Positions 11,691 through 23,278 of a stretch of DNA of 64,000 nt are shown here, piece after piece. Position numbers and translations under genes: made by a program. Every line of letters starts with the position of its first letter. Within the stretch, counting starts at the first letter, position 1. The DNA is from Actomonas aquatica. Its GTDB lineage: Bacteria; Verrucomicrobiota; Verrucomicrobiia; Opitutales; Opitutaceae. The notes below the pieces were generated by a model. That model was not told where the DNA came from and searched no databases. It was given only the letters and a program-made list of their open reading frames with translations. The stretch is from contig NZ_CP139781.1 in NCBI RefSeq assembly GCF_019679435.2, positions 4,522,001 through 4,586,000 of the forward strand. Reading direction: 5' to 3'.

Positions 11691-12024
11691 TGGATTTTTC
11701 AGACATAGCCTCCTGTCTTTGCTGATCTGAAACTGGTGCAGTTGCCTGGGCGCTTGGGAGTGGCCCCCTCGAAGCGAGTGCTGGATGAATTTCTGGCAAC
11801 GGCGGTTGAGCACAGTCTGCTCCCGATTCAACGTGGAATGGGGTTCGCCTTCAGGAGTAGACGAGGGAGCAGGCCTCCGCTGGTTTTTCCTATACTCCGT
11901 CCTATACTCGGGCCCGAAATTCAGGCCTTTTCGGGACGATTCCGGACCGTGTTTGGCCTTTCTGTCGGTGTGGTTTGAGAGGCAGGGACAGGCGGAGACT
12001 GTTCGAGACCAACCACTTAAACGA
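11691..12024 (+). other. Intergenic stretch between the DUF4365 gene and the tRNA remnant
   Basis: About 330 bp. Open frames of 60-90 codons occur but overlap each other in different frames and show no domain. No integrase or recombination-directionality gene is left. I looked here for the missing 5' half of the tRNA (acceptor strand GCTCGGG, D-arm) and did not find it. It is best read as degraded accessory DNA. Confidence 0.45.
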
Positions 12025-12078
12025 CCTTAGAAGCCCTTGCCGTAAGGCGTGCTGGTTCGAGTCCAGTCCCGAGCACCA
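12025..12078 (+). pseudogene. 3' half of tRNA-Leu(UAG), likely attachment-site remnant
   Basis: From 12025 the sequence reads as the 3' part of a leucine tRNA: anticodon loop CTTAGAA (12026-12032, anticodon UAG), 3' anticodon stem GCCCT (12033-12037), a long class II variable arm (TGCC GTAA GGCG), T-arm with stem gctgg/ccagt around TTCGAGT (12051-12067), acceptor 3' strand CCCGAGC, discriminator A and encoded CCA (12076-12078). The five bases before the loop (acgac) do not pair with GCCCT and no D-arm or 5' acceptor strand lies upstream. It is therefore not a working tRNA. A 3' fragment starting at the anticodon loop is the usual footprint of a tyrosine-recombinase element integrated into a tRNA gene; the complete gene would be at the other end, outside this window. 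Confidence 0.8.
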
Positions 12079-12120
12079 GCCTTCGCTCCCGCGGGGAGCT
12101 TCGGCTGGCGGGGCCAGCGT
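12062..12120 (+). repeat. 59-bp direct repeat, copy 1 (tRNA 3' end plus hairpin)
   Basis: Identical to 12254-12312. It begins inside the T-arm of the tRNA remnant, includes the CCA end and continues through a stem-loop (ccagcc...ggctgg outside, gctccc/gggagc inside, loop gcg) that looks like the tRNA terminator. The copies are 192 bp apart, start to start. Confidence 0.85.
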
Positions 12121-12170
12121 CCGACTACGGAATATGGACTGGACGATGAACCATGGTTCGACGGAGCGGA

Positions 12171-12248
12171 GTGTCGCGGTGCGACACGGAGCGGAGATGG
12201 GGCGCCCGTAGGGCGATCTCGCGGAAGCGAGATCCCGCCTTTGGCGGG
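12171..12248 (+). repeat. Array of four small perfect hairpins
   Basis: Four consecutive stems with loops of three or four bases: gtgtcgc-ggt-gcgacac (12171-12187), cgccc-gta-gggcg (12203-12215), gatctcgc-ggaa-gcgagatc (12215-12234) and ccgcc-ttt-ggcgg (12235-12247). Each stem has a different sequence, so this is not one element copied four times. It lies between the two copies of the 59-bp repeat, at the end of the leftward-transcribed glycosidase gene. Confidence 0.75.
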
Positions 12249-12253
12249 ACCAA

Positions 12254-12312
12254 TCCAGTCCCGAGCACCAGCCTTCGCTCCCGCGGGGAGCTTCGGCTGG
12301 CGGGGCCAGCGT
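12254..12312 (+). repeat. 59-bp direct repeat, copy 2
   Basis: Second copy of 12062-12120. Only the last 17 bases of the tRNA and the following hairpin are repeated, not the anticodon arm, so this copy is a second-order duplication or an older recombination scar. Confidence 0.85.
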
Positions 12313-12330
12313 TCGATCACGCGACACCTA

Positions 12331-14469
12331 TCACGGCAGCGGCTGCAAACCTTCGGCGCGGACGGTCCAGGTGCCGTCGTTGGGGATGCCCGGATGAGGA
12401 GTCTCGTTGCCTTCCCAGCCGGCGATCATGAGGGCGACGGCGGAGAGGAAGGAGCCGTTGGCCGGTAGATAGACGGCTATTTCGGTGCGACCAGGGGCGG
12501 CACCTTGGCGGGCGCGGTCGCTGCCTTGGGGGCAGTGACCGTTGGGGGCGTAGCGGTTGTTGGGGCCGTCGCGTAGCAGGACTTCAATGGCATCCTGCGG
12601 GCGATTCAGCCGCGTCGCGGTCATGGCGATCATGGGGTAGTCCCAGCCCCAGATTTTGGTTTCCCAATCCCAGTCGGCCAACACGGCGTCGAGCGTGCGG
12701 TCCATGGTGGCGCGATCGACGTCGGGGCCACCGGGGAGGAAGCCGAGGGGCATGAGCATTTGCGGGTGGTCGTGCCGGCTGTTGAGGTTGGTCCAAGTGT
12801 CGGGGTGGGATTCGAGGGCGACGTATTTGCCGTCGTCGGTGGCGAGGGGCGGCAGGTGGGCGAGGCGGTGGTCCCAGTCGGCGTTGCGCTCCAAGCCGGC
12901 ACGTTCGCGCCAGGTTTGCGCGGTTTCGAGCGCCCAACGCCAGTAAGCGAGTTCGAAGGACGGGTTTTGGCTGGTGGCTTGGTCGTGGATTTCCTGCGCG
13001 ATCCACAACGGTGGGCCGAGCACGTAGGTGCCGCGGGTTTCGTCCCATTGCAGCATGGTGGCGAGGCAGGCGGCGGTGTCCTGCACGAGATCGAAGTAGT
13101 GTGTCGCGTGGGCGGCGGCCGGGTCGTGGCGGCGGAGCAACTCGGCTAGGTAGATGGGGTGGGGCTGGTTCCAGACGATGAGCGGGTTGCCGCCGGGGCT
13201 TTCGCGCATGTCTGGGCCGACCATCTTGGCCCAGCGGGCGCCGGCGAGATTGCGACTGGCGGCGAGGGTGCGGGCTTCGGGCAAGCGGCGCACAAACCAA
13301 TCGAGATTGGTGGCGGCGAGATCGGGGCGGCCCCAAAGCACGAAGTGCGCGGTGTGCCACCAGATCATCTCAGTGTGGTGCTTCCCATACCACGTGTTGC
13401 AGGTGAGGCCACTCTCCTGCGGCGGCACCTCGCCGACGCTTTGCACGGCCGTGAGATATTGGGACTGCACGATGCGGCGCTCGAGTTTGGGCGCGAGCGG
13501 ATTGGTGCTGCCGGTCAGGTCGACCGCGGCGCCGCGGGTCCAGAACTGCTCCCAATGGGCAGCGCTCGCAGCGCGAACAGCAGCGGGTTCCGGTATCCGG
13601 TTGGTGGGCACGGACTCGCTGTAGCGCAGACTGAGAGCGAGCGTGGTGGTGCCTTCGTTGGGTTCGAAGGCGAACGTGTGCGGGGCTGCGGCGTCGGGCG
13701 TGATGGGGAGGCTGGTGGTGACGGTGTAGGTGGTGCCGAGCACCTCGCGGGCGATGGTGTGTGTGTCGCGCAGCTCGGAGCGGTGAGACTCGGGTTGGCT
13801 CCAATCGAAGGCAGGGGTGTTTTTAACGGACGGATCGTGTCCGCGGGGGAAGCGCAGGCGGAGGCGGAGTTCGCCGCGCGCGACCAGCGGTGACTCGAGT
13901 TCGATGGCGATGGTGTCGGAATCGGGAGCGCAGCTGGTGCGCACCGAGACAGGCTCAGCACCGAGAGTAAAGTGGCTGGTGATGACGCCGGTCCATTGGT
14001 CGAGGGTTTGGTGGGGATCGACGATGTCAGCCGGGGTGAAGGGCGATCCGTCGGGTTTGCGCCAATCGAGCGCGAGCTGGCCGAGCGGATGGAGGCGCGG
14101 GTTGCGGCGCAGCCATTGACCGGCGGCTTCGTCGGAGTTGCTCGGCAAGGCCAAGGTCGTGCCGTCGGGTTGCACGTAATCGCGGTTGGCGTCGGCGACG
14201 GTGTAGTTCTCCGGGTTGGCTTCGGTCACCCAGCACCAGCGGGCGAGGGTTTCGAGGGGAATGCCGTTGGCGTAGTAGTGATCGCCGAAGGTCTGCAGAC
14301 CGGTGACGTCGACGGTGAAGGCGAAGCCGCCATTGCCGACGGTGAGCGGGGCCCAGGGATCGACGGTGGTGACCACGGGATTGTTCCGGGCTACGAGGGC
14401 ATGGCGGTCGATGGGGGGCGAGGCCGCGAGACTCGAGGCGAGGGCGACGAAAACGAGGAGGTGGCGCAT
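12331..14469 (-). CDS. Exported (alpha/alpha)6-barrel glycosidase-like protein
   Basis: 712 aa. The signal peptide is MRHLLVFVALASSLAASP. The N-terminal 300 residues are a beta-sandwich-like region (VGNGGFAFTVDVTGLQTF...). The C-terminal half has the aromatic and acidic blocks of six-hairpin glycosidases: 'WYGKHHTEMIWWHTAHFVLW', 'MVGPDMRESPGGNPLI', 'WNQPHPIYLAEL', 'WDWETKIWGWDYPMIAMTA'. This layout resembles the GH65/GH95-type architecture, but I cannot assign a family or substrate. The gene starts 3 bp after the GH28 gene, so the pair forms an operon for a pectin-like or other plant or algal polysaccharide. It is probably periplasmic. The C-terminal end faces the hairpin and tRNA-remnant region. 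Confidence 0.75.
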   Translation of the reverse strand: MRHLLVFVALASSLAASPPIDRHALVARNNPVVTTVDPWAPLTVGNGGFAFTVDVTGLQTFGDHYYANGIPLETLARWCWVTEANPENYTVADANRDYVQPDGTTLALPSNSDEAAGQWLRRNPRLHPLGQLALDWRKPDGSPFTPADIVDPHQTLDQWTGVITSHFTLGAEPVSVRTSCAPDSDTIAIELESPLVARGELRLRLRFPRGHDPSVKNTPAFDWSQPESHRSELRDTHTIAREVLGTTYTVTTSLPITPDAAAPHTFAFEPNEGTTTLALSLRYSESVPTNRIPEPAAVRAASAAHWEQFWTRGAAVDLTGSTNPLAPKLERRIVQSQYLTAVQSVGEVPPQESGLTCNTWYGKHHTEMIWWHTAHFVLWGRPDLAATNLDWFVRRLPEARTLAASRNLAGARWAKMVGPDMRESPGGNPLIVWNQPHPIYLAELLRRHDPAAAHATHYFDLVQDTAACLATMLQWDETRGTYVLGPPLWIAQEIHDQATSQNPSFELAYWRWALETAQTWRERAGLERNADWDHRLAHLPPLATDDGKYVALESHPDTWTNLNSRHDHPQMLMPLGFLPGGPDVDRATMDRTLDAVLADWDWETKIWGWDYPMIAMTATRLNRPQDAIEVLLRDGPNNRYAPNGHCPQGSDRARQGAAPGRTEIAVYLPANGSFLSAVALMIAGWEGNETPHPGIPNDGTWTVRAEGLQPLP

Positions 14470-14472
14470 GGC

Positions 14473-16137
14473 TCAGCGAGTGAAGTTGTCCGGTTTACCG
14501 CTGGTGCGCAGCGTTTGCAGATCCTCGACGTCGCGCAGCACCCAGGTGGGCTCACCCTCGGCGGGTTGAAGGGAGACATCGCGGAAGCTCGCACCATTGG
14601 CGCCTTCCAGGTGAATGGCCGGACGGGCGTCGGGGGTGTCGGTGCGCAGCTCGATGTCGTGCAGGCGCAGGTTGGCGACGTGGCGGGCGAACATCCCCCA
14701 GGATGGCATGGTGCCAAAAACATCGGGGTCGGGGTAGGCGCGCTCGTAGCCGGGGACTTCGCGGTTCGCCTGCTCGGCGGTGCCGCCGCCGGCGTAGTGG
14801 AAACGCAGGTTGGAGAGGGTCACGTCTTCGATGGGGTGGTCGGGCAGGCCGGCGATGAGGATGCCGTGATCGGGGGCGACGTTGGAGGCGACGATGTTGC
14901 TGATGTTGATGCGACGCACGGTGCCCGGGCCGGCGGCGACGGGACTGCGGAGGCGGGCGCCGAGGCGGATGAAGATGGGCGCGTTCTGAACGTCGCGCAT
15001 GGTGATATTGCTGATACTCACGTCTTCGAGCACACCGCCATCGACCTGCTCGAGGGCGAGGCCGCGGGAGTAGTCGAAGACGCAGTTGTCGATGGTGATG
15101 TTGCGGAAGCCGCCGCCGGCTTCGGTGCCAAATTTGATGCGGCCCATCACGCCGCCAAAGCGCTGGGTGGTGCGGGTGCGGGTGCCGTCGAGGAGGGTGC
15201 CCTCGTCGTAGCCGGAGACGAAGCAGTTGGTGATGGTGACGTTCTCGCAGACGCGGGCGTAGCCGAGGCCGTGGGAGGATTTGAGGCAGATGGCGTCGTC
15301 CCACGGGGCGTTGACCGCGGTGTTGCTGATGCGGACGTTGGAGCAGGCATCGATGTCCATGCCGTCGCGGTTGGTATCGATGGTGAGGTTGTCGATGGTG
15401 AGGTTGTCGACGCCGGTGGCGAGGATGGCGAAGTGGCCGCCGTGCAGCATGCGAAAGTCGCGCAGGGTGACGTTGGTGCAGTTTTTGAGCGCGATGGCTT
15501 TGTTGCCGACGCCGGCGGGCAGGGCGTCGCGAGCGTTGGGGTAGTTGAAGGGACCCGGCGTGAGGTCGGGGCGGGGCGGGTAGTCGAAGGGACCGTCGGC
15601 CTTAAGCACGTCGGGCAGTTCGCCGTCGTCGGTGGGTGGTGGAGTGGCGTTGACGGGGAGGGATATGCGGCCGTTCCCGCGGGAGAGGCCGCGACCGTAG
15701 ATGAGGCCAGGGCCGGTGATGGAGACGTCGGTCAGGTCCTCGCCGTAGATGAGGCTGTTGCGCCAGTGGCTGTGTCCAAAATCCTGATACTCGTTCCACT
15801 CGTTGGGCTCGGGCGCGTCGTAGCCGCCGGGTTCGCCGGGGGCGGGGGGATCGGCTGCGAGGAGGGTGGCACCCGGGCCGAGGTGCAGGGTGATGTGACT
15901 GCGCAGGCGGATGGTGTAACTCAGGTAGTCGCCGGCGGGCAGCACGACCGTGCCGCCGCCTGCGGCCGCGGCGGCTTCGATGGCGGCGTTGATGGCAGGC
16001 GAGTCGAGCGTGGTGCCGTCGCCGGTGGCGCCGTAGTCGCGCACGGAAAAAGTGCCGATGGTGGCGGATAGACTGGCCGAAGTGGCGAGAGCGAGCAGGC
16101 ACGCGAGCAGACGGAGCAGCGGTCGGGGTAGGGGCAT
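14473..16137 (-). CDS. Glycoside hydrolase family 28 (polygalacturonase-like), exported
   Basis: 554 aa with an N-terminal signal peptide (MPLPRPLLRLLACLLALATS). It has the pectate-lyase-like opening 'FSVRDYGATGDGTTLDSPAI' (residues 30-49), then right-handed beta-helix coils. The GH28 catalytic elements are in order: D258 in NRDGMDID, D280/D281 in WDDAICLKSS, the SHG motif (288-290, matching GHG) and RIK (333-335). GH28 enzymes invert galacturonide or rhamnogalacturonan bonds; the exact specificity is not readable. First gene of a two-gene operon with the glycosidase-like gene. The divergent TPR gene starts 158 bp away, so the intervening region must hold both promoters; I see no clear operator in it. 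Confidence 0.9.
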   Translation of the reverse strand: MPLPRPLLRLLACLLALATSASLSATIGTFSVRDYGATGDGTTLDSPAINAAIEAAAAAGGGTVVLPAGDYLSYTIRLRSHITLHLGPGATLLAADPPAPGEPGGYDAPEPNEWNEYQDFGHSHWRNSLIYGEDLTDVSITGPGLIYGRGLSRGNGRISLPVNATPPPTDDGELPDVLKADGPFDYPPRPDLTPGPFNYPNARDALPAGVGNKAIALKNCTNVTLRDFRMLHGGHFAILATGVDNLTIDNLTIDTNRDGMDIDACSNVRISNTAVNAPWDDAICLKSSHGLGYARVCENVTITNCFVSGYDEGTLLDGTRTRTTQRFGGVMGRIKFGTEAGGGFRNITIDNCVFDYSRGLALEQVDGGVLEDVSISNITMRDVQNAPIFIRLGARLRSPVAAGPGTVRRINISNIVASNVAPDHGILIAGLPDHPIEDVTLSNLRFHYAGGGTAEQANREVPGYERAYPDPDVFGTMPSWGMFARHVANLRLHDIELRTDTPDARPAIHLEGANGASFRDVSLQPAEGEPTWVLRDVEDLQTLRTSGKPDNFTR

Positions 16138-16294: not shown

Positions 16295-19132
16295 GTGTGG
16301 GCCCTCCCGATCAGGCTTCGATTTTTGGTAGGATTGTTGGGGGTAACTGTCGCTGGAGCCCAGCCGGTGGCACAGTTGGGCACGCAAGCGCTGCAGGAGG
16401 AGGCGCAGGTGCAAATCGAACGCGGTGCGTGGGGCGAAGCGGTGCCGTTTTTGCGCGAGTTAAATCGGCGGTTGCGCGAGTCGAGCGATGCGGCGGCGGT
16501 GCGGTCGCGGGAGCAGGTTTTGTATTTTCTCGGGTTGGGGCAGCTGCAGATGGCGAACCTGCCGGGGGCGGCGGACACGCTGGCGGAGTTTATTGCAACG
16601 TATCCGGAATCGCCACAGGCGGTGACGGCGCAACTGTATCGGGGGGACACCTACTACTACCAAGGGCGGCTGGCCGATGCGCGGGCGCTGTATGAAGAAC
16701 TGGGGCGGCGATGGTCGCCGGGAGATCTGGGCGTGGCGGAGCGAGCGCTGTATTGGGAGCACTACGCGGACTGTGTATATGCGGAGAAAGACTGGGAGGC
16801 GGGGGCCGAGGTGTTCGCGGCCCTGCAAGGCGCGGCGGCGCAGCTGCTCGATGCGGGGGCGGCGCGCGAGAAGGGCGCCAAGGCCGCGTCGTATCGGCTG
16901 CAGGCGGCGATCGCGGCCAACGATTTTGCGGCGGCGCTGGAGCTGTTGCCGGAGCTCACCGGCGGGGCAGGGCGCACGCGGCACGACCTCGCGCTGAACC
17001 TCGCGCTCATGCGCGGCGGCGATGAACTCTATCAGGCCGGGCGCCACGGCGAGGCATTGTTCTTCTACGAACTGGTCCTGCGACCGGCGGAGCTGCGGCG
17101 CTTCTGGACGGAGCAGCGGGCGCGGCTGGAGGCGGAGCAGGCGCGGGTCGTCGGGGTGGCTTGGCTGGCGGATCGTGCGCTGGAGGTGGAGGGGGAACTG
17201 CGCGAAGCGGCGCAACGGTTGGGGCAGCTAGGAGAGGCGTTTGATGGGGAGACGAGCGATGCGGCGAAGCCGGTGAGCGACTATACGCAGGCGTTGGATT
17301 TTCGGGTGGCGCGCTGCTACCTCGCGGAGGAGCGGGTATTTGAAGCGTATTGGGCGTTCGTGCGGCTGGAGGAGTCGGCGACGGCGGATGGGTTTGTGGA
17401 GGAGGCGGTTTATGGTCAGGTGAAGACCGCGGCGGCGGCGGGGTTCGACGATCGGGTGCGACGCACGGCGCGACGTTACCTGCGCGAGGCGGCGTATGAG
17501 CGTTTCATCGGCGATGTGGGTTACGAACTGCTACAGACGGCGCTGCGAGCGGAGGACGAGTTGGCGGTGCAAGAACTCACCGAAGCGTTCATGGCGCGGG
17601 TGCGACTGGATCCGCGCCTGCAGGAAGCGCCGAAGCTGATTTACCTGGTGGGATCGACCTTGCTGGAGCGCGGTGATTTGGCGGGGTTGCGGGAGCGGCT
17701 GGAGCCGATGTTGGCGGCGTATCCGGAATATGGATTCAGCGATGGTCTGGCCTACTGGCTGGGCATGGCCGATGTGCTGGAAGGGCGCTACCGACCGGCG
17801 CGGGCGTATTTTGAGCGCATCGTGGCCGATTTTCCCAACGGCGGATATGCGGAGGACGCGCACTTTCGCATCGGGGTGTGTTGGTTTGGCCTGCTCGACT
17901 ACAAGAAGGCGCGGCTGAAGCTGGATGGTTTCCTGCAGGACTATCCGGACAGTCGACTGGTTTGTGAGGCGCAGGCACTGCTGGGCGATCTGGCGGCGGC
18001 GGAAGGGCGGGTGGACGCGGCGCTCAATGCCTATGCGGCGGCGCGGGATGCGGGTGGGATGCTTTCGCCGCCGAATCAAGGTTACATCGACCATGCGGTG
18101 TTTCAGGGCGGCAAACTGCTGGCGGGGTCCGGGCGATGGGCGGAGATGGCGGAGTGGTTTGAAAGTTATCTGCGGCGCTGGGGTGAGGACGGGCGGGCGG
18201 GGGATGCGATCTATGAACTGGGGCGCGCGCAGGTGGCGCTGGGGCGCACGGATGCGATGCTCGACCTGTGGATCGAGTCGATCCTGCGCTTCGGCGATGA
18301 TCCGCGGGATACGGGGCCGGACCTGATGCTGGCGGAGTATCCGGAGCACTACCGGGCGGTGCGGGGCGGCTCGCCGGAGGGCGTGTTTAAGGATGCTCTA
18401 CGCATCGCGACCGCGCAGGCGGAAACGACCTTGGTGCTACGTCTGGCGACGGCCCTGCGGGCGTTGCCGGAGGTGGCGGGAGACGGGTTGCTGGAGGTGA
18501 CGGCGGAGAATTTGGAGCAGGCGAGTGGAGCGGTGCTGGTGGCGGCGGCGCGGCGACTGGCGGAGGCGGACCCAGCGCTGGCGCGGACGGCCCTGGAGCG
18601 GGCAGTGGAGTTGTCGCCTTTTGCGCCGTTTGCGCCGGAGGCGTGGGCGCGGCTGGCAGAACTGCGCGAGCAGGCGGGGGAAGTGTTGCCGGCGATCGCG
18701 GCGTGGCAGCACGTGGCGGCGACGTTTCCGACGGCCCCGGAGGCGCGGGTGGCGCGGTTGCGCGAGGGCGATCTGCAGCGGGAACGGGGCGCGACGGCCA
18801 ATGCGATCGCGGCGTATCGCGAGGTGTTGAAGGTGCGGGAGTGGCGTGGGGCGGCGTGGGCGGAGGCGAACTTTAAGATCGGGCTCACGCACTTCGAGGC
18901 GGGCGACTACGAAAAGGCGTTTGGGTTTTGCCAGCGGGTTTACGTGCTCTACGGCGGCGTGGCCGAGTGGGCGGCGGAGGCCTACCTCACCAGTGGATTG
19001 GCGTTGGAGCGGCTCGGTCGTGGTGATGAGGCAGTGGCGACGTATCGGGAGTTGGTGCAACAAAATCGACTGGCCGACACCAAAGCGGCGGCGGCGGCAC
19101 GCGAGCGGCTGGAGGCGTTGGGGGCGTCATGA
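16295..19132 (+). CDS. Large exported TPR protein of an ExbB/ExbD operon
   Basis: 945 aa from a GTG start, with a signal-peptide-like beginning (ALPIRLRFLVGLLGVTVAGA). Almost the whole length is tetratricopeptide repeats, for example 'LAEFIATYPESPQAVTAQLYRG', 'ADFPNGGYAEDAHFRIGVCW' and 'FLQDYPDSRLVCEAQALLGD', spaced as in the YbgF/CpoB and BamD type of outer-membrane accessory proteins. It is probably periplasmic, giving a protein-docking scaffold. It is the first gene of a tightly coupled operon: its stop overlaps the next ATG (ATGA at 19129). In Tol-Pal systems a TPR protein (CpoB) is also co-encoded, so a role in coordinating envelope work powered by the downstream ExbB/ExbD motor is an inference. 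Confidence 0.75.
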   Translation: MWALPIRLRFLVGLLGVTVAGAQPVAQLGTQALQEEAQVQIERGAWGEAVPFLRELNRRLRESSDAAAVRSREQVLYFLGLGQLQMANLPGAADTLAEFIATYPESPQAVTAQLYRGDTYYYQGRLADARALYEELGRRWSPGDLGVAERALYWEHYADCVYAEKDWEAGAEVFAALQGAAAQLLDAGAAREKGAKAASYRLQAAIAANDFAAALELLPELTGGAGRTRHDLALNLALMRGGDELYQAGRHGEALFFYELVLRPAELRRFWTEQRARLEAEQARVVGVAWLADRALEVEGELREAAQRLGQLGEAFDGETSDAAKPVSDYTQALDFRVARCYLAEERVFEAYWAFVRLEESATADGFVEEAVYGQVKTAAAAGFDDRVRRTARRYLREAAYERFIGDVGYELLQTALRAEDELAVQELTEAFMARVRLDPRLQEAPKLIYLVGSTLLERGDLAGLRERLEPMLAAYPEYGFSDGLAYWLGMADVLEGRYRPARAYFERIVADFPNGGYAEDAHFRIGVCWFGLLDYKKARLKLDGFLQDYPDSRLVCEAQALLGDLAAAEGRVDAALNAYAAARDAGGMLSPPNQGYIDHAVFQGGKLLAGSGRWAEMAEWFESYLRRWGEDGRAGDAIYELGRAQVALGRTDAMLDLWIESILRFGDDPRDTGPDLMLAEYPEHYRAVRGGSPEGVFKDALRIATAQAETTLVLRLATALRALPEVAGDGLLEVTAENLEQASGAVLVAAARRLAEADPALARTALERAVELSPFAPFAPEAWARLAELREQAGEVLPAIAAWQHVAATFPTAPEARVARLREGDLQRERGATANAIAAYREVLKVREWRGAAWAEANFKIGLTHFEAGDYEKAFGFCQRVYVLYGGVAEWAAEAYLTSGLALERLGRGDEAVATYRELVQQNRLADTKAAAAARERLEALGAS

Positions 19133-20184
19133 AAATGTGGTTACCGAAAGTGCTTTGGCTGGGGATCGTGGTGGGCGCCACGTTGACGGCGGAACCATTG
19201 CGGGCGCGTTGGGGCGGCGGAGAGGGCGATGGCGAGGGGCAATGGATGCAGGTGTTGGGGGTAGACGCGGCGGGCCGGGTGCGGTTGGTGCCGGAGGGGC
19301 AGCCGGAAGGAGAGGCTTTGGTGCCGCGGGAGGAGGCGAAGGGGTTGCGTTTTGAGCTGCCGCGGGATTACGAGCGGGCGCGACGGCTGGCGCTGGCGGG
19401 GCGGCATGGCGAGGCGGCGCTGTTGTTGCGCCGATTTGTGCCGGCGCTGGTGCCGTATACGCCGGTGCCGGAGTCGAACGCGGGGGCGGCGGTGCGACTG
19501 TATTTGCGTTCGCTGGTGCGGGAGGAGGCGTGGGCGGATGCGTTGGCGATGATGCTCGCGATCGAGCCGGAGCACGCGGGCACGGAGTTGGCGCGGGAGA
19601 GCGCGGAGCTGGCGCGGGGGTTACAGAGGGCGCAGCGTTGGGACGAGCTGCGTTTGCTGCTGGAGGTGTGGTGGGTGGCGGCGCCGACGGCGGAGTCCGC
19701 GGAGAGTCGGCGCAATGCCTTGGCGATGGCGACGGATCTGCGGCGCGGGGGTCAATGGGAGGAGGCGGCGGTGCTTTATGAGAAGCTGCGGCGCGGCACG
19801 GAAGGGGCGGAGCGGCGCACGCTTGATCTGTTGTTGGCCTATCTGGATTGGCACCGGGGCAGCGATCTGGGAGCGCGGGCTTTGTTGGAGGTGATGGAGG
19901 CACCGCCGGCGGCGGAGGATGACGGGGCTTTGTATCGGTTGTTGCGGGGGCGGTTGAATTTGGCGGCGGGGGAGACGCGGGCGGCGTTGGATGAATTGGC
20001 CACGGCATTGGTGGCGGCGGGCAGCACGAGCGAGTGGCGGATCGAGCTGGTCGCGGCGTTGGCGTTGGCGTATCGGGAAAATGGAGACGAGGCCGTGGCG
20101 GCGCGCATCACCGGGGATCTGCAACGGCAGCATCCGGATTCGCGATGGACGGCGGAAGCGAGCGCGGGGGAGCAAATTTTATGA
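19129..20184 (+). CDS. Exported TPR-like protein of the ExbB/ExbD operon
   Basis: 351 aa. The N-terminus 'WLPKVLWLGIVVGATLTAEP' looks like a signal peptide. Residues 40-70 could be a small beta-rich segment; the rest is alanine/leucine/glutamate-rich helical repeats of TPR type (ARRLALAGRHGEAALLLR, 'GGQWEEAAVLYEKLRRGT'). It overlaps both neighbours by 4 bp (ATGA at 19129 and at 20181), so it is made in step with the first TPR protein and ExbB. No enzyme motif. It is best called a second periplasmic adaptor of the same complex. Confidence 0.68.
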   Translation: MKMWLPKVLWLGIVVGATLTAEPLRARWGGGEGDGEGQWMQVLGVDAAGRVRLVPEGQPEGEALVPREEAKGLRFELPRDYERARRLALAGRHGEAALLLRRFVPALVPYTPVPESNAGAAVRLYLRSLVREEAWADALAMMLAIEPEHAGTELARESAELARGLQRAQRWDELRLLLEVWWVAAPTAESAESRRNALAMATDLRRGGQWEEAAVLYEKLRRGTEGAERRTLDLLLAYLDWHRGSDLGARALLEVMEAPPAAEDDGALYRLLRGRLNLAAGETRAALDELATALVAAGSTSEWRIELVAALALAYRENGDEAVAARITGDLQRQHPDSRWTAEASAGEQIL

Positions 20185-20945
20185 AAACTCAACGAATCGA
20201 GTGGATGACGATCACGCGCTGGCTGTTGCTGGCCGGACTGGTGCCGGCGTTGTTGCACGCGCAGGACACGGCGGCGGCGAGTGCGGCGGACGGTGCGGGC
20301 GACGTGAGTCTGGGGCAGTTGTGGGCGCAGGGCGGTTGGGCGATGTATCCGCTGGCCTTGTTCTCGATGGCGGCGTTTGGGCTCATCGTTTTCAACGCGA
20401 TGGCGATTCGAGAGAAGGCGCTGCTGCGGCCTGATGTGACTGCGCAGTTGGCGGAGACCTTGGGGCGGGGTGACGTGGCTTCGGCGCGCACCATGTGTGA
20501 GGAGGAACCGTGCCTGGTGGCCAACATCACGGCCGCGGGATTGGCGCGGGTGAAGGCGGGGGCGTATGACGTCGAAGCGGTGGAGAAGGCGATGGAGGAG
20601 GCTGCGGTGGAAGAGATCGCGGGGCCTTTTGGCGTGATCAGCTACCTGTCGATTTTGGCGACGCTGGCGCCGATGGTCGGCATGCTCGGCACGGTGTCCG
20701 GTATGATCAAAGCGTTCCGCAATATCGCGCTCGGCGGCATGGGCAAACCGGAGTTGTTGGCGGACAATATTTCGGAGGCGCTCATCACGACGGCGGTGGG
20801 TTTGGTGGTGGGAATTCCGGCGATGTTTGCCTTCTTCTTTTTCAAGAGTCGCTACGCGCGGCTGACCTCGCGGCTGGCGCGGATTTGCGGTGATTTGCAT
20901 CACACGCTTACGCATGCGATGCGGACCAAAGGAGGCGGTGCGTGA
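20181..20945 (+). CDS. exbB: MotA/TolQ/ExbB proton channel family protein
   Basis: 254 aa from ATG 20181, which overlaps the previous stop (ATGA); an upstream in-frame start at 20034 would add a tail of non-protein-like sequence. N-terminal signal-like segment, then 'GGWAMYPLALFSMAAFGLIVF' as the first core membrane helix. The family block follows at about residues 150-230: 'ISYLSILATLAPMVGMLGTVSGMIKAF' and 'ALITTAVGLVVGIPAMFAFFFF', the two helices that line the proton path. ExbB/TolQ pentamers with ExbD/TolR dimers convert proton motive force into movement of a TonB- or TolA-like partner. The neighbours are two ExbD genes and a VWA protein. Confidence 0.92.
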   Translation: MKTQRIEWMTITRWLLLAGLVPALLHAQDTAAASAADGAGDVSLGQLWAQGGWAMYPLALFSMAAFGLIVFNAMAIREKALLRPDVTAQLAETLGRGDVASARTMCEEEPCLVANITAAGLARVKAGAYDVEAVEKAMEEAAVEEIAGPFGVISYLSILATLAPMVGMLGTVSGMIKAFRNIALGGMGKPELLADNISEALITTAVGLVVGIPAMFAFFFFKSRYARLTSRLARICGDLHHTLTHAMRTKGGGA

Positions 20946-21358
20946 AGATGGGGATGCAGGGCGCGGATGACGCGCGCTTCGACATGACGCCGATGATGGA
21001 CATCGTGTTCCAGCTCATCGCGTTCTTCATGATCGTGGCGACTTACGTCACACGGGAGAAAGTCGAAGTGGAACTGCCGCTGGCGGTGAACGCGGCGATC
21101 GCGGAGAACCAGCAGGGCCGTATGATGATTTCCATTACGGTCGACGGCCAGGTGTGGGCGGGCTCGCGGGCGGTGAGCTTGGACGAACTCGCGAGCGACG
21201 TTCGCAGTTGGCTGACGGACGACGCTGATGCGAAGATCGTGATTCGGGCCGAACGTTCCAACAGCTACGGTTTGGTGAAGCAGGTGATGAAGGTCTGCCG
21301 CGATGCGGGGATCAGCGACATCATCTTCTCGTCGTTTCAATCGGAGGGCGGGGGATGA
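20942..21358 (+). CDS. exbD: ExbD/TolR family protein, first copy
   Basis: 138 aa from GTG 20942 (GTGA overlap with exbB). A single N-terminal membrane helix follows the family signature 'FDMTPMMDIVFQLIAFFMIVATYV', which includes the membrane aspartate D20 that binds the proton. The periplasmic part has the usual 'ITVDGQVW.G.R.VSLDEL' and 'IVIRAERSNSYGLVKQVM' pattern. It forms the stator with ExbB. A repeat element of about 110 bp (21384-21491) separates it from the second exbD, the only sizeable gap in an otherwise overlapping operon. Confidence 0.92.
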   Translation: MKMGMQGADDARFDMTPMMDIVFQLIAFFMIVATYVTREKVEVELPLAVNAAIAENQQGRMMISITVDGQVWAGSRAVSLDELASDVRSWLTDDADAKIVIRAERSNSYGLVKQVMKVCRDAGISDIIFSSFQSEGGG

Positions 21359-21383
21359 GGGAGGCTGACGCGATGAAGGGGGT

Positions 21384-21491
21384 GACCACGAAACACACTA
21401 AATACACGAAAGCCGTCAGCCTGATGGGTTTGGCCCACGGAACACACGGATTACACGGAACCGATTCTCTGCCGTTCCGTGTGTTCCGTGG
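21384..21491 (+). repeat. Cacga-type repeat elements between two exbD genes
   Basis: 21384-21411 matches the terminal repeat of the GxxExxY cassette at 51644-51673 with one base change. About 20 bp further on is a second palindromic element of the same style: 21433-21448 (cccacggaacacacgg) and 21476-21491 (ccgtgtgttccgtggg) are perfect 16-bp inverted repeats. No gene lies within. It interrupts a translationally coupled operon without harming a reading frame. Confidence 0.8.
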
Positions 21492-21521
21492 GCGACCTCT
21501 GCAGTGGGGAGGAGTGGTTGG

Positions 21522-21956
21522 ATGAAAACCAGTCGGGACATGTTTGCGGAGGAGGAGGGGTTCTCTTTGGACTCGATGCTGGATATCGTCTTCCTGCTGT
21601 TGATCTACTTCATGGTGACGGCGGCGTTTGTGAAGGAAGAGGCGGACATCAGCATGTCGTTGCCGAGTCGGGTGGAGCAGGACGAGCCGCTCGATATGCC
21701 GGAGGAGCAGGTGCTCGATATTCTGGCGGATGGACGCGTGCTCTTGAATGGGTTGGAGGTGGATGACGCGCTGAGTCCCGATCTGCCGATGCTTACGCGC
21801 ACCTTGGCGCGGTTCCGACAGGCGGCGGATGACGCGCAGGTGCCGGCGTTTATCGTGGTGCAGCCGGAGGACGAAGCCCGGCATCAGCGGATCATTGATG
21901 TGCTCAACGCCTGTGCGGTGGCGAAGATCGAACTCGTATCCTTCAACTTGGAATGA
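21522..21956 (+). CDS. exbD: ExbD/TolR family protein, second copy
   Basis: 144 aa from ATG 21522 (MKTSRDMF); the TTG-type start six codons upstream is less likely. One membrane helix with the proton-binding aspartate lies in 'FSLDSMLDIVFLLLIYFMVT'. The periplasmic part (ILADGRVLLNGLEVDD; 'FIVVQPEDEARHQRIIDVLN') fits ExbD. Its sequence differs clearly from the first ExbD, so the pair probably forms a heterodimer rather than a recent duplication. Its stop overlaps the following ATG (ATGA at 21953). Confidence 0.9.
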   Translation: MKTSRDMFAEEEGFSLDSMLDIVFLLLIYFMVTAAFVKEEADISMSLPSRVEQDEPLDMPEEQVLDILADGRVLLNGLEVDDALSPDLPMLTRTLARFRQAADDAQVPAFIVVQPEDEARHQRIIDVLNACAVAKIELVSFNLE

Positions 21957-23278
21957 AGCAGCGCGCCAAACGGAGCACCTTGTTTTGGGTCATCGCGATC
22001 AGTGTGGCGGTGCACGTGATAGCGGGCGCGATCTTTGCGGGGCTGAAGATCTACCGTTACACGGAGCCGCCGGAAGCGACCTTTGAGTCACCGCCGCCGG
22101 CGCGACGCATGGCGCAGGCGAATGTGGAATACCGGGTGGCGATGCAGCAGTTGCAGCAGCAGAGCGCGCGGCCGCCCGGGCAGACTGCAGGGGCGATGGA
22201 CAGCCTGTTGGAGCAATCGCTGGAGTCATTCGACAGTCCGGGAGGCGCGTTTGGCACGTCGGCGCTGGGCGGCACGCCGGTGGTGGTGGGGGCGGGAGCG
22301 GGACGCGGCCGTGGTTTGGGGCGGATCGGTGGAGGGGGCGGTTCGCTGGCCATCGGGGTGTCGGCAGTGGACTTTTTTGGCATCAAGAAGCAGGGCGAAC
22401 GCGTCTGTTTTATCGTGGATGCCGGGGCTTCGATGGTGGAGCCGGAGCGCGGTGATTTGCCGGGTTATGAGCGAGTGAAGGCGGAACTCGTGGCGATGGT
22501 GGAGGGGCTCTCGCCGGGCACGTTTTTTAACATCGTGGTGTTTGAGCGAGGGGTGGACCTCTACGCGCCGCGCATGGTGGTGGCCACGCGGGACAATACC
22601 TCGCAGGTGGCCGACTGGATCGCGCCGTATTGGCGGCTGGTGGACGGGAAGATCAAAGAGCGGGGAACGTTTCGGAAGAACTACGAACCGGAACTGGTGG
22701 ACTGGGAGGGCGCGGGCGGAACCTCGCGCATGGATTTGGCGTTGGCGGCGGCGTTGGAGCAGCGGGCGGATTTGATTTTTATGATTACCGATGGCACGCC
22801 CTCGATCCGCTTGGCACGCAAGGAGGCCGAGGATCAAACGTGGCGGCGCCGGGTGGAGGGTTACGAGGAGGCGCGGGCGCGTTATGAGGCAAGTGAACGC
22901 GGAAAGCGGGAGATGGCGGCTTACGAGCAGGAACGGGCGGTTTGGCAGGCGGCGCGGGATCGCGAAAAGGCGGAGCGCGAAGCGAAAGGACTGCCGCCGG
23001 TCGTGCGCGAAGGCGGCAACCGCGGGGCACCGTCGCGGCCGGGTCCGTCGCGGCCGAGTCGGCCGACGGAGTATGCGGAGTTGGATGATTTGCAGCGCTG
23101 GGTGCGGCGGCGGGCGACGACGCTTTACGAGAGTGGCGGCAGTGCGTTGCCGAGTCTAAATCTGGTGGGTTATTCGCCCAACGCGCGGGGGACGGCGACG
23201 ATCGAAGTGCTGGCGAAGACGTTCCCAGATGGGACGAGTCGGGTGATTGGGGCGTTTGCGGCGGGTGGGACGCCGTAG
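21953..23278 (+). CDS. TonB-position membrane protein with a degenerate VWA domain
   Basis: 441 aa. A cytoplasmic start (MKQRAKR), one membrane helix (residues about 9-30) and a proline-containing stretch imitate TonB/TolA. The C-terminal domain is not TonB-like but a von Willebrand A fold beginning at 'RVCFIVDAGASMVEP'. The MIDAS motif DxSxS reads DAGAS, so the first serine is replaced by glycine; the later threonine (GGTSRMDLAL) and aspartate (MITDGTPS) positions are kept. A charged helical insertion (residues about 285-345) rich in R, E and A follows, then a C-terminal 'LNLVGYSPNARGTATIEVLA' block. Last gene of the ExbB/ExbD operon. It is likely the moving partner of the motor, carrying a binding domain instead of a TonB box reader; this is inference. 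Confidence 0.78.
   Translation: MKQRAKRSTLFWVIAISVAVHVIAGAIFAGLKIYRYTEPPEATFESPPPARRMAQANVEYRVAMQQLQQQSARPPGQTAGAMDSLLEQSLESFDSPGGAFGTSALGGTPVVVGAGAGRGRGLGRIGGGGGSLAIGVSAVDFFGIKKQGERVCFIVDAGASMVEPERGDLPGYERVKAELVAMVEGLSPGTFFNIVVFERGVDLYAPRMVVATRDNTSQVADWIAPYWRLVDGKIKERGTFRKNYEPELVDWEGAGGTSRMDLALAAALEQRADLIFMITDGTPSIRLARKEAEDQTWRRRVEGYEEARARYEASERGKREMAAYEQERAVWQAARDREKAEREAKGLPPVVREGGNRGAPSRPGPSRPSRPTEYAELDDLQRWVRRRATTLYESGGSALPSLNLVGYSPNARGTATIEVLAKTFPDGTSRVIGAFAAGGTP

Follow-up and report, generated by a model that had tools for sequence, protein, structure and literature searches.

The six-gene operon at positions 16295 to 23278 of the 64,000-nucleotide stretch analysed here (hereafter the window; Actomonas aquatica, Opitutaceae, contig NZ_CP139781.1, positions 4,522,001 to 4,586,000 of the forward strand) probably encodes a proton-driven complex of the TonB/TolA type, which would transmit force to envelope partners by pulling on them through a VWA head. 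All six genes listed in the initial annotation, namely two for TPR proteins, one for ExbB, two for different ExbDs and one for a VWA protein, are present on the + strand, and TPR1-TPR2-ExbB-ExbD1-ExbD2-VWA constitute one operon. That annotation set a VWA protein as motor output against the TonB, TolA or AglR-type outputs of known motors; novelty is not supported, as the family, its gene order and its motif are already in PMC12204202 (2025), and the window operon is a member of the vWA force transducer family defined there. The features on which the argument relies are the following.

16295..19132, + strand: TPR1, a long, probably periplasmic TPR protein (945 amino acids; Pfam TPR_6, E-value 1e-22)
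19129..20184, + strand: TPR2, a second TPR-like, probably periplasmic protein (351 amino acids; Pfam TPR_6, 0.0012, under the curated cut-off)
20181..20945, + strand: ExbB/TolQ-type motor stator (Pfam PF01618, 2.5e-27)
20691..20693, + strand: T171 of ExbB, a Thr in 62/62 ExbBs at loci with motor and VWA gene
20942..21358, + strand: ExbD1 (Pfam PF02472, 5.6e-24)
20999..21001, + strand: D20 of ExbD1, putative proton-binding Asp, kept in relatives
21359..21521, no strand: gap of 163 bp between ExbD1 and ExbD2, holding a perfect 18-bp inverted repeat
21522..21956 (ATG start), + strand: ExbD2, a second and different ExbD (Pfam PF02472, 2e-17)
21582..21584, + strand: D21 of ExbD2, putative proton-binding Asp, kept in relatives
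21953..23278, + strand: VWA-headed putative force transducer (441 amino acids), with helix, linker and VWA head in the AlphaFold2 model
22001..22015, + strand: S17-x-x-x-H21, putative motor-docking pair within the transmembrane helix of the VWA protein
22418..22432, + strand: DAGAS (residues 156-160), altered first motif of the metal-ion-dependent adhesion site (MIDAS), S158 being changed to G

Four of the five junctions (TPR1/TPR2, TPR2/ExbB, ExbB/ExbD1 and ExbD2/VWA) are 4-bp overlaps, which agrees with the annotation's 'nearly all', the exbD pair being the one set apart; a GTG at 21504 is a possible alternative start for ExbD2. The same order recurs across the phylum, which rules out chance or misannotation as the origin of this arrangement. 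A VWA match was found in 24 of 57 genomes of relatives and, in a scan of the phylum at a threshold of 0.001, in 86 of 240 genomes, part of these matches covering only helix and linker; in 43 genomes the match was under 1e-50. For a census, 80 VWA matches were taken by hand, among the matches listed, from the top down to an E-value of about 6e-26, leaving out further copies within multi-copy genomes. Homologues of the VWA gene do not mostly occur without the motor: 67 of 110 VWA rows adjoin one, and TPR1, ExbB, ExbD1 and ExbD2 are all present in 57 of the 58 motor-adjacent VWA loci with at least 6 kb upstream (the window being counted), an order thus found widely within the phylum. A second sample consisted of loci picked by ExbB alone (out of 520 named loci, the 80 with the best matches, some contigs being common to the VWA census). 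Wherever at least 2.6 kb was available downstream, two ExbDs followed (63/63), and the next gene encoded a VWA protein in 43 cases and a transducer with a PA14 head in 1; with at least 5 kb upstream, TPR1 and TPR2 were each found in 58/64 loci. At the level of whole genomes, an ExbB match under 1e-50 accompanies 40 of the 43 VWA matches under 1e-50 (Fisher p about 1.6e-21), and in the remaining three genomes (G099, G137, G184; here and below, G denotes genomes and L loci) the operon was seen directly.

The coupling of the VWA protein to the motor, its position being that of TonB or TolA, is well supported by sequence. TonB and TolA each contact their motor through a Ser and a His spaced four residues apart, and we take S17/H21 to be the counterpart of this docking pair. 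H21 is nearly invariant (90% or more) across 71 aligned sequences. The census rows numbered 113, of which 3 were set aside for their PA14 heads. Among the 110 left, the His is present in 64 of the 67 heads next to a motor, in 21 of the 33 rows that have an aligned helix but no motor, and in 4 of 5 contig-edge rows, 5 rows being unalignable. The same loci supplied 32 further N-terminal helices, of membrane or signal type, as a control: SxxxH occurred in none, and a core His in 2. The helix thus keeps the putative docking pair, and the annotation's placing of the VWA protein as motor output holds on this count as on that of co-occurrence. The motor residues are also kept at motor-VWA loci, with the helix Asp in 62/63 ExbD1s (one gap) and 65/65 ExbD2s, and Thr at T204 in 62/62 and at T203 in 51/62 ExbBs; the Asp presumably binds protons and the Thr presumably lies in the pore.

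It is very unlikely that the VWA protein is a separate sensor or Bat-like assembly factor, placed in the operon incidentally. Such a role would suit the 12 of 33 motorless rows that lack the His, as well as the presence of BatB among the structural matches of the protein; it fits poorly with the His of nearly all motor-adjacent heads, with the co-occurrence of VWA and ExbB in genomes, and with a PA14-headed sibling that occupies the same slot on a similar anchor. Alternatively, the pore of ExbB might be entered by a helix of the VWA protein, as proposed for TPH-vWA, the second family of PMC12204202, in which vWA proteins are paired with TolQ homologues, without ExbD/TolR, and bear a pore helix with an Asp. 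Despite the shared pairing of vWA with a TolQ homologue, we regard this as extremely improbable, given the two ExbDs found after ExbB at 63/63 ExbB-picked loci and the VWA helix of the window, which contains no Asp.

The head of the window protein is a VWA fold, a conclusion well supported by modelling. By sequence, Pfam gives only 1.4e-4, under the curated cut-off, and an alignment profile matches inter-alpha-trypsin inhibitor heavy chain H4 at 1.7e-6. An AlphaFold2 model from the 71-sequence alignment (mean predicted local distance difference test score, pLDDT, 84.3) consists of a helix (residues 5-37), a linker (76-130) below pLDDT 50 and a head (about 137-438) mostly above 90. Foldseek against PDB retrieves VWA domains, including those of CLCA1, BatB, the minor pilin PilB and inter-alpha-inhibitor heavy chains, with TM-scores, normalised by query length, of about 0.2-0.3. 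T257 and D280 occupy other expected MIDAS ligand places, roles that we assume for them. The changed MIDAS (DAGAS) reported by the annotation is real in the window gene and does not extend to a family trait, which is ruled out by the 36 of 69 motor-adjacent rows that retain DxSxS (32 lack it, 1 is unreadable); among the remaining rows, it is kept in 9/44, absent in 33 and unreadable in 2, the tally including the three PA14-headed rows.

On these grounds, the following mechanism is proposed. A pentamer of ExbB, with a pair formed by ExbD1 and ExbD2, both carrying the proton-binding Asp, would use the proton-motive force to move the single-helix transducer, docked on the motor through S17/H21. 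A flexible linker would carry the VWA head into the periplasm, and there the head, with its dedicated TPR1 and TPR2, may grip and pull an outer-membrane partner or a captured cargo. The head itself would be an exchangeable module, sister operons placing a sugar-binding PA14 domain on a similar anchor, instead or additionally.

In six genomes (G099, G102, G175, G215, G089, G205), VWA genes with the helix His but no motor beside them coexist with a full operon elsewhere, and ten out of ten probed genomes with such genes (G058, G099, G102, G139, G174, G175, G215, G252, G268, G279) have an ExbB of at least 240 bits against the operon profile, compared with 115 to 226 bits in genomes whose only VWA genes are of a class in which Gln replaces the helix His. 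We infer from this that one motor may serve several heads. The motorless rows without His number 12, being L045 and 11 of the short Gln class (L052 assigned by eye). L045 and this class might suggest that the His is lost along with the motor; no such link is claimed, as the L045 genome retains a strong ExbB and the His is also missing from three heads that do adjoin a motor.

The short VWA class with Gln replacing the helix His was seen at L046, L047, L049-L052, L054, L056, L057, L173, L175 and L177. No motor was found near its members, and none of the neighbours compared (up to L057) is common to all, L051 and L057 (with L053) sharing three. L045 (3692-9377) displays TPR1-TPR2-VWA without ExbB/ExbD, with Gln for His.

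Several related operons carry in their sixth slot a PA14-headed protein on a closely similar anchor, either beside the VWA protein or replacing it. These proteins came to light through weak VWA matches spanning only helix and linker. A PA14-transducer profile at 0.001 matches 86 of 240 genomes, a tally that includes helix-and-linker-only matches; in 51 of them the match is under 1e-30. Twenty PA14 regions were chosen for variety, not randomly. Pfam recognises PA14 with a score that passes the cut-off at three loci (L193, L264, L280) and falls short of it at two (L265, L278), and makes no PA14 call in L267 and L275. The PA14 gene follows the second ExbD in L264, L278 and L275, and PA14 and VWA-class genes are adjacent downstream of the motor in L265 and in L164, a locus of the VWA census where the motor is also in line with the PA14 gene. 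Such neighbours have similar anchors: in L265, the anchors are 78% identical over 137 residues, after which the heads diverge; the pair in L164 shares 60% identity over 249 residues, and PA14 and VWA (DFSAS) neighbours in L277 are 54% identical over about 150 residues. The helix His is present in 22 of 25 aligned PA14 sequences, the three without it being Akkermansia-type. A model of the L278 protein (pLDDT 75.7 on average and over 90 in most of the head) has as its first 18 PDB matches sugar-binding PA14 adhesin domains (Marinomonas, Candida), Flo adhesins being among later ones. An Asp-Asp pair that PA14 lectins are known to have is kept in 23/25 sequences. Section 8 of PMC12204202 mentions no PA14 heads, genomes with several heads and one motor, or MUL1, and a literature search on PA14-headed transducers returned one unrelated paper and no description of head exchange.

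A third type of head, squalene-hopene-cyclase-like and on a similar anchor, was noticed in L195 (9436-10971) and L280 (11391-13163), in the latter ahead of the PA14 gene. In L317 (Planctomycetales bacterium HKST-UBA31), the five-gene motor module is followed by a frame of 1150 amino acids with a membrane helix, replacing the VWA transducer.

The question arises as to what the complex would pull. The annotation proposed a protein ligand, to which force would be transmitted or which would be released; the PA14-headed siblings point as much to a glycan. Our first guess, a tentative one, is that the system captures or takes up large glycans or glycan-binding proteins, because of these PA14 heads and of a possible link to MUL1, a locus of Akkermansia. 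Alternatively, and with the same motor and coupling, the job could be envelope maintenance or gliding, the VWA head pulling on a surface or outer-membrane adhesion protein, much like Tol-Pal or the Myxococcus gliding motor. VWA domains are commonly protein-binding, and the best NCBIfam match of TPR1 is tol_pal_ybgF (5.9e-39 across six stretches, above the cut-off). A gliding role is also suggested in PMC12204202. We hold this explanation to be possible and somewhat doubtful: eleven neighbouring genes scanned with Pfam included no Pal or TolB, nor a TonB-dependent receptor, which bears out the absence of adjacent Tol/Pal and receptor genes given in the annotation; lectin-like PA14 heads in the same slot suit a glycan better; and one motor with several scattered heads is unlike Tol-Pal.

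The possible link to MUL1 comes from an Akkermansia-like genome (G078), in which a GH95 protein matches PDB 7zo0/7znz (FucOB) with 1790 bits over 777 residues; FucOB presumably originates from A. muciniphila. Locus L189 of this genome (about 0.67 Mb) comprises ExbB-ExbD1-ExbD2-TPR1 and a TPR2-like gene. In profile comparison, the window TPR1 matches that of L189 at 2.2e-31 over 888 columns, compared with 1.7e-12 for a control TPR of another motor. The ExbB tree places these Akkermansia-type sequences on a long branch within the VWA-motor group, weakly supported (92/42), and leaves outside this group six further ExbB rows from the window's genome. MUL1 reportedly includes Amuc_0544 (Mul1A, a TPR protein), and L189 is possibly MUL1. 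In PMC13174399, MUL1 and MUL2 are said to mediate mucin transport and processing, MUL1 being likened to the Sus system, and polysaccharide-uptake mechanisms in aquatic Akkermansiaceae are called largely understudied; Amuc_0543 is listed as enriched in vesicles in PMC13335810. Taken furthest, the data would describe a proton-driven engine for glycan capture and uptake in Verrucomicrobiota and relatives, with interchangeable VWA and lectin-like PA14 heads on one kind of anchor, one dedicated motor with TPR1/TPR2, and MUL1 as a variant. We consider this wider proposal rather unlikely, given the weakness of the TPR2 match and the partly contrary papers on MUL1. If the heads are indeed exchangeable, a transducer family so far devoid of function would gain a substrate class and a knockout phenotype to seek, as well as a possible tie to a locus reported necessary for mucin handling.

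Several observations run counter to the picture of a dedicated motor with exchangeable, glycan-directed heads. For the docking helix, three motor-adjacent VWA heads have another residue than His (Leu in L129, Thr in L135, Tyr in L146), the L045 genome has Gln for His in spite of a strong ExbB elsewhere, and of the SHLS motif the window has just the first two residues, F28 and K32 standing at the other two places if TonB spacing is assumed. For the heads, neither a VWA nor a PA14 gene lies downstream in 19 of the 63 ExbB-picked loci, and the PA14-transducer profile has no match in the window's own genome. The motor is in line with the PA14 gene in 5 of the 20 regions (L264, L265, L275, L278, L280); in L266 it lies about 5 kb away on the opposite strand, and none was found in the other 14. 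Within these five, the L275 protein, which is outside the set of 25, gives no Pfam match and has no His. For Akkermansia, TPR2 gives 1.8e-8 against the Akkermansia protein, which does not improve on the 4.7e-8 of TPR2 against TPR1, so that the match may reflect TPR repeats only; aquatic Akkermansiaceae show no MUL1 synteny in PMC13174399, and in PMC11480725 Amuc_0546, among 'biopolymer' transporters, is raised in soy versus mucin medium. Finally, sulfatase genes were not significantly enriched near motorless VWA genes (9/17 loci versus 10/36 control windows, p 0.12). The controls came from the same six genomes and consisted of 31 of 37 random draws, 6 being removed for overlap with known loci or each other, plus 5 windows placed by hand, and two of them (L212, L219) contain PA14 transducers. 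The full count covers 20 loci, 3 of them from genomes without controls, and a sulfatase is present in 9; the count omits motorless L108, L114 and L133, includes L130 (helix missing), and relies on a sulfatase profile seeded from one case locus.

The operon sits in a genome of one contig of 6.1 Mb with ten MotA/ExbB-family matches. The eleven neighbours scanned were GH28-like, a 712-amino-acid protein without match, glyoxalase-like, OGG-like, Alpha-E, CP_ATPgrasp, SBP_bac_5, DUF4365, chloride channel, amidase and FG-GAP. The GH28-like enzyme and the 712-amino-acid protein are encoded directly upstream of the operon on the opposite strand (12331-16137), and further on (11902-12327) APPAEAPRGSEGWCSG occurs twice within one open frame, a short direct DNA repeat, perhaps noncoding. 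In the gap between ExbD1 and ExbD2, the arms of the inverted repeat lie at 21433-21450 and 21476-21493, short ACACGGA-type repeats are also seen, and the 17-base pattern ACACGGANTACACGGAA from this gap occurs at 3 places genome-wide. Judged by ExbB, the closest named relatives belong to the Opitutaceae, including Candidatus Synoicihabitans palmerolidicus (75-77% identity). In the latter (L286), TPR1 matches fall in six open frames, TPR2 in three and ExbB in two, and no VWA match was found downstream of the motor; the operon looks fragmented, perhaps a natural loss of the system.

Among known systems, the closest is the family of PMC12204202, for which a literature search returned no second description. 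There, predicted inner-membrane vWA force transducers of the Tichowtungia family, in the PVC group, are encoded after a TPR gene, a tolQ-like gene and two tolR-like genes that differ from each other; the SHLS motif is found in 'many' members, not all, a motor box is predicted in the linker, and the helix is proposed to bind the side of the motor as in ExbBD-TonB. The window shares with it the single Ser/His helix, the disordered linker, the vWA head and the upstream gene order, and differs by its two TPR genes and by having just S and H of SHLS. BatA/BatB-type proteins also present a VWA domain on a membrane anchor, but have no tie to this motor. If L189 is MUL1, the Akkermansia system has in one locus a homologous ExbB, two ExbDs, TPR1 and a TPR2-like protein, but in the order ExbB-ExbD-ExbD-TPR1-TPR2 and with no VWA gene, its PA14 transducers lying elsewhere and lacking the His. 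With ExbBD-TonB and TolQRA, finally, the operon has in common the motor residues, the Ser/His pair of the helix and the anchor-linker-head layout; in contrast to them, no adjacent receptor or Pal was found, two different ExbDs and the TPR1/TPR2 proteins are added, and the head is a VWA fold, or PA14 in relatives, instead of the TonB/TolA C-terminal fold.

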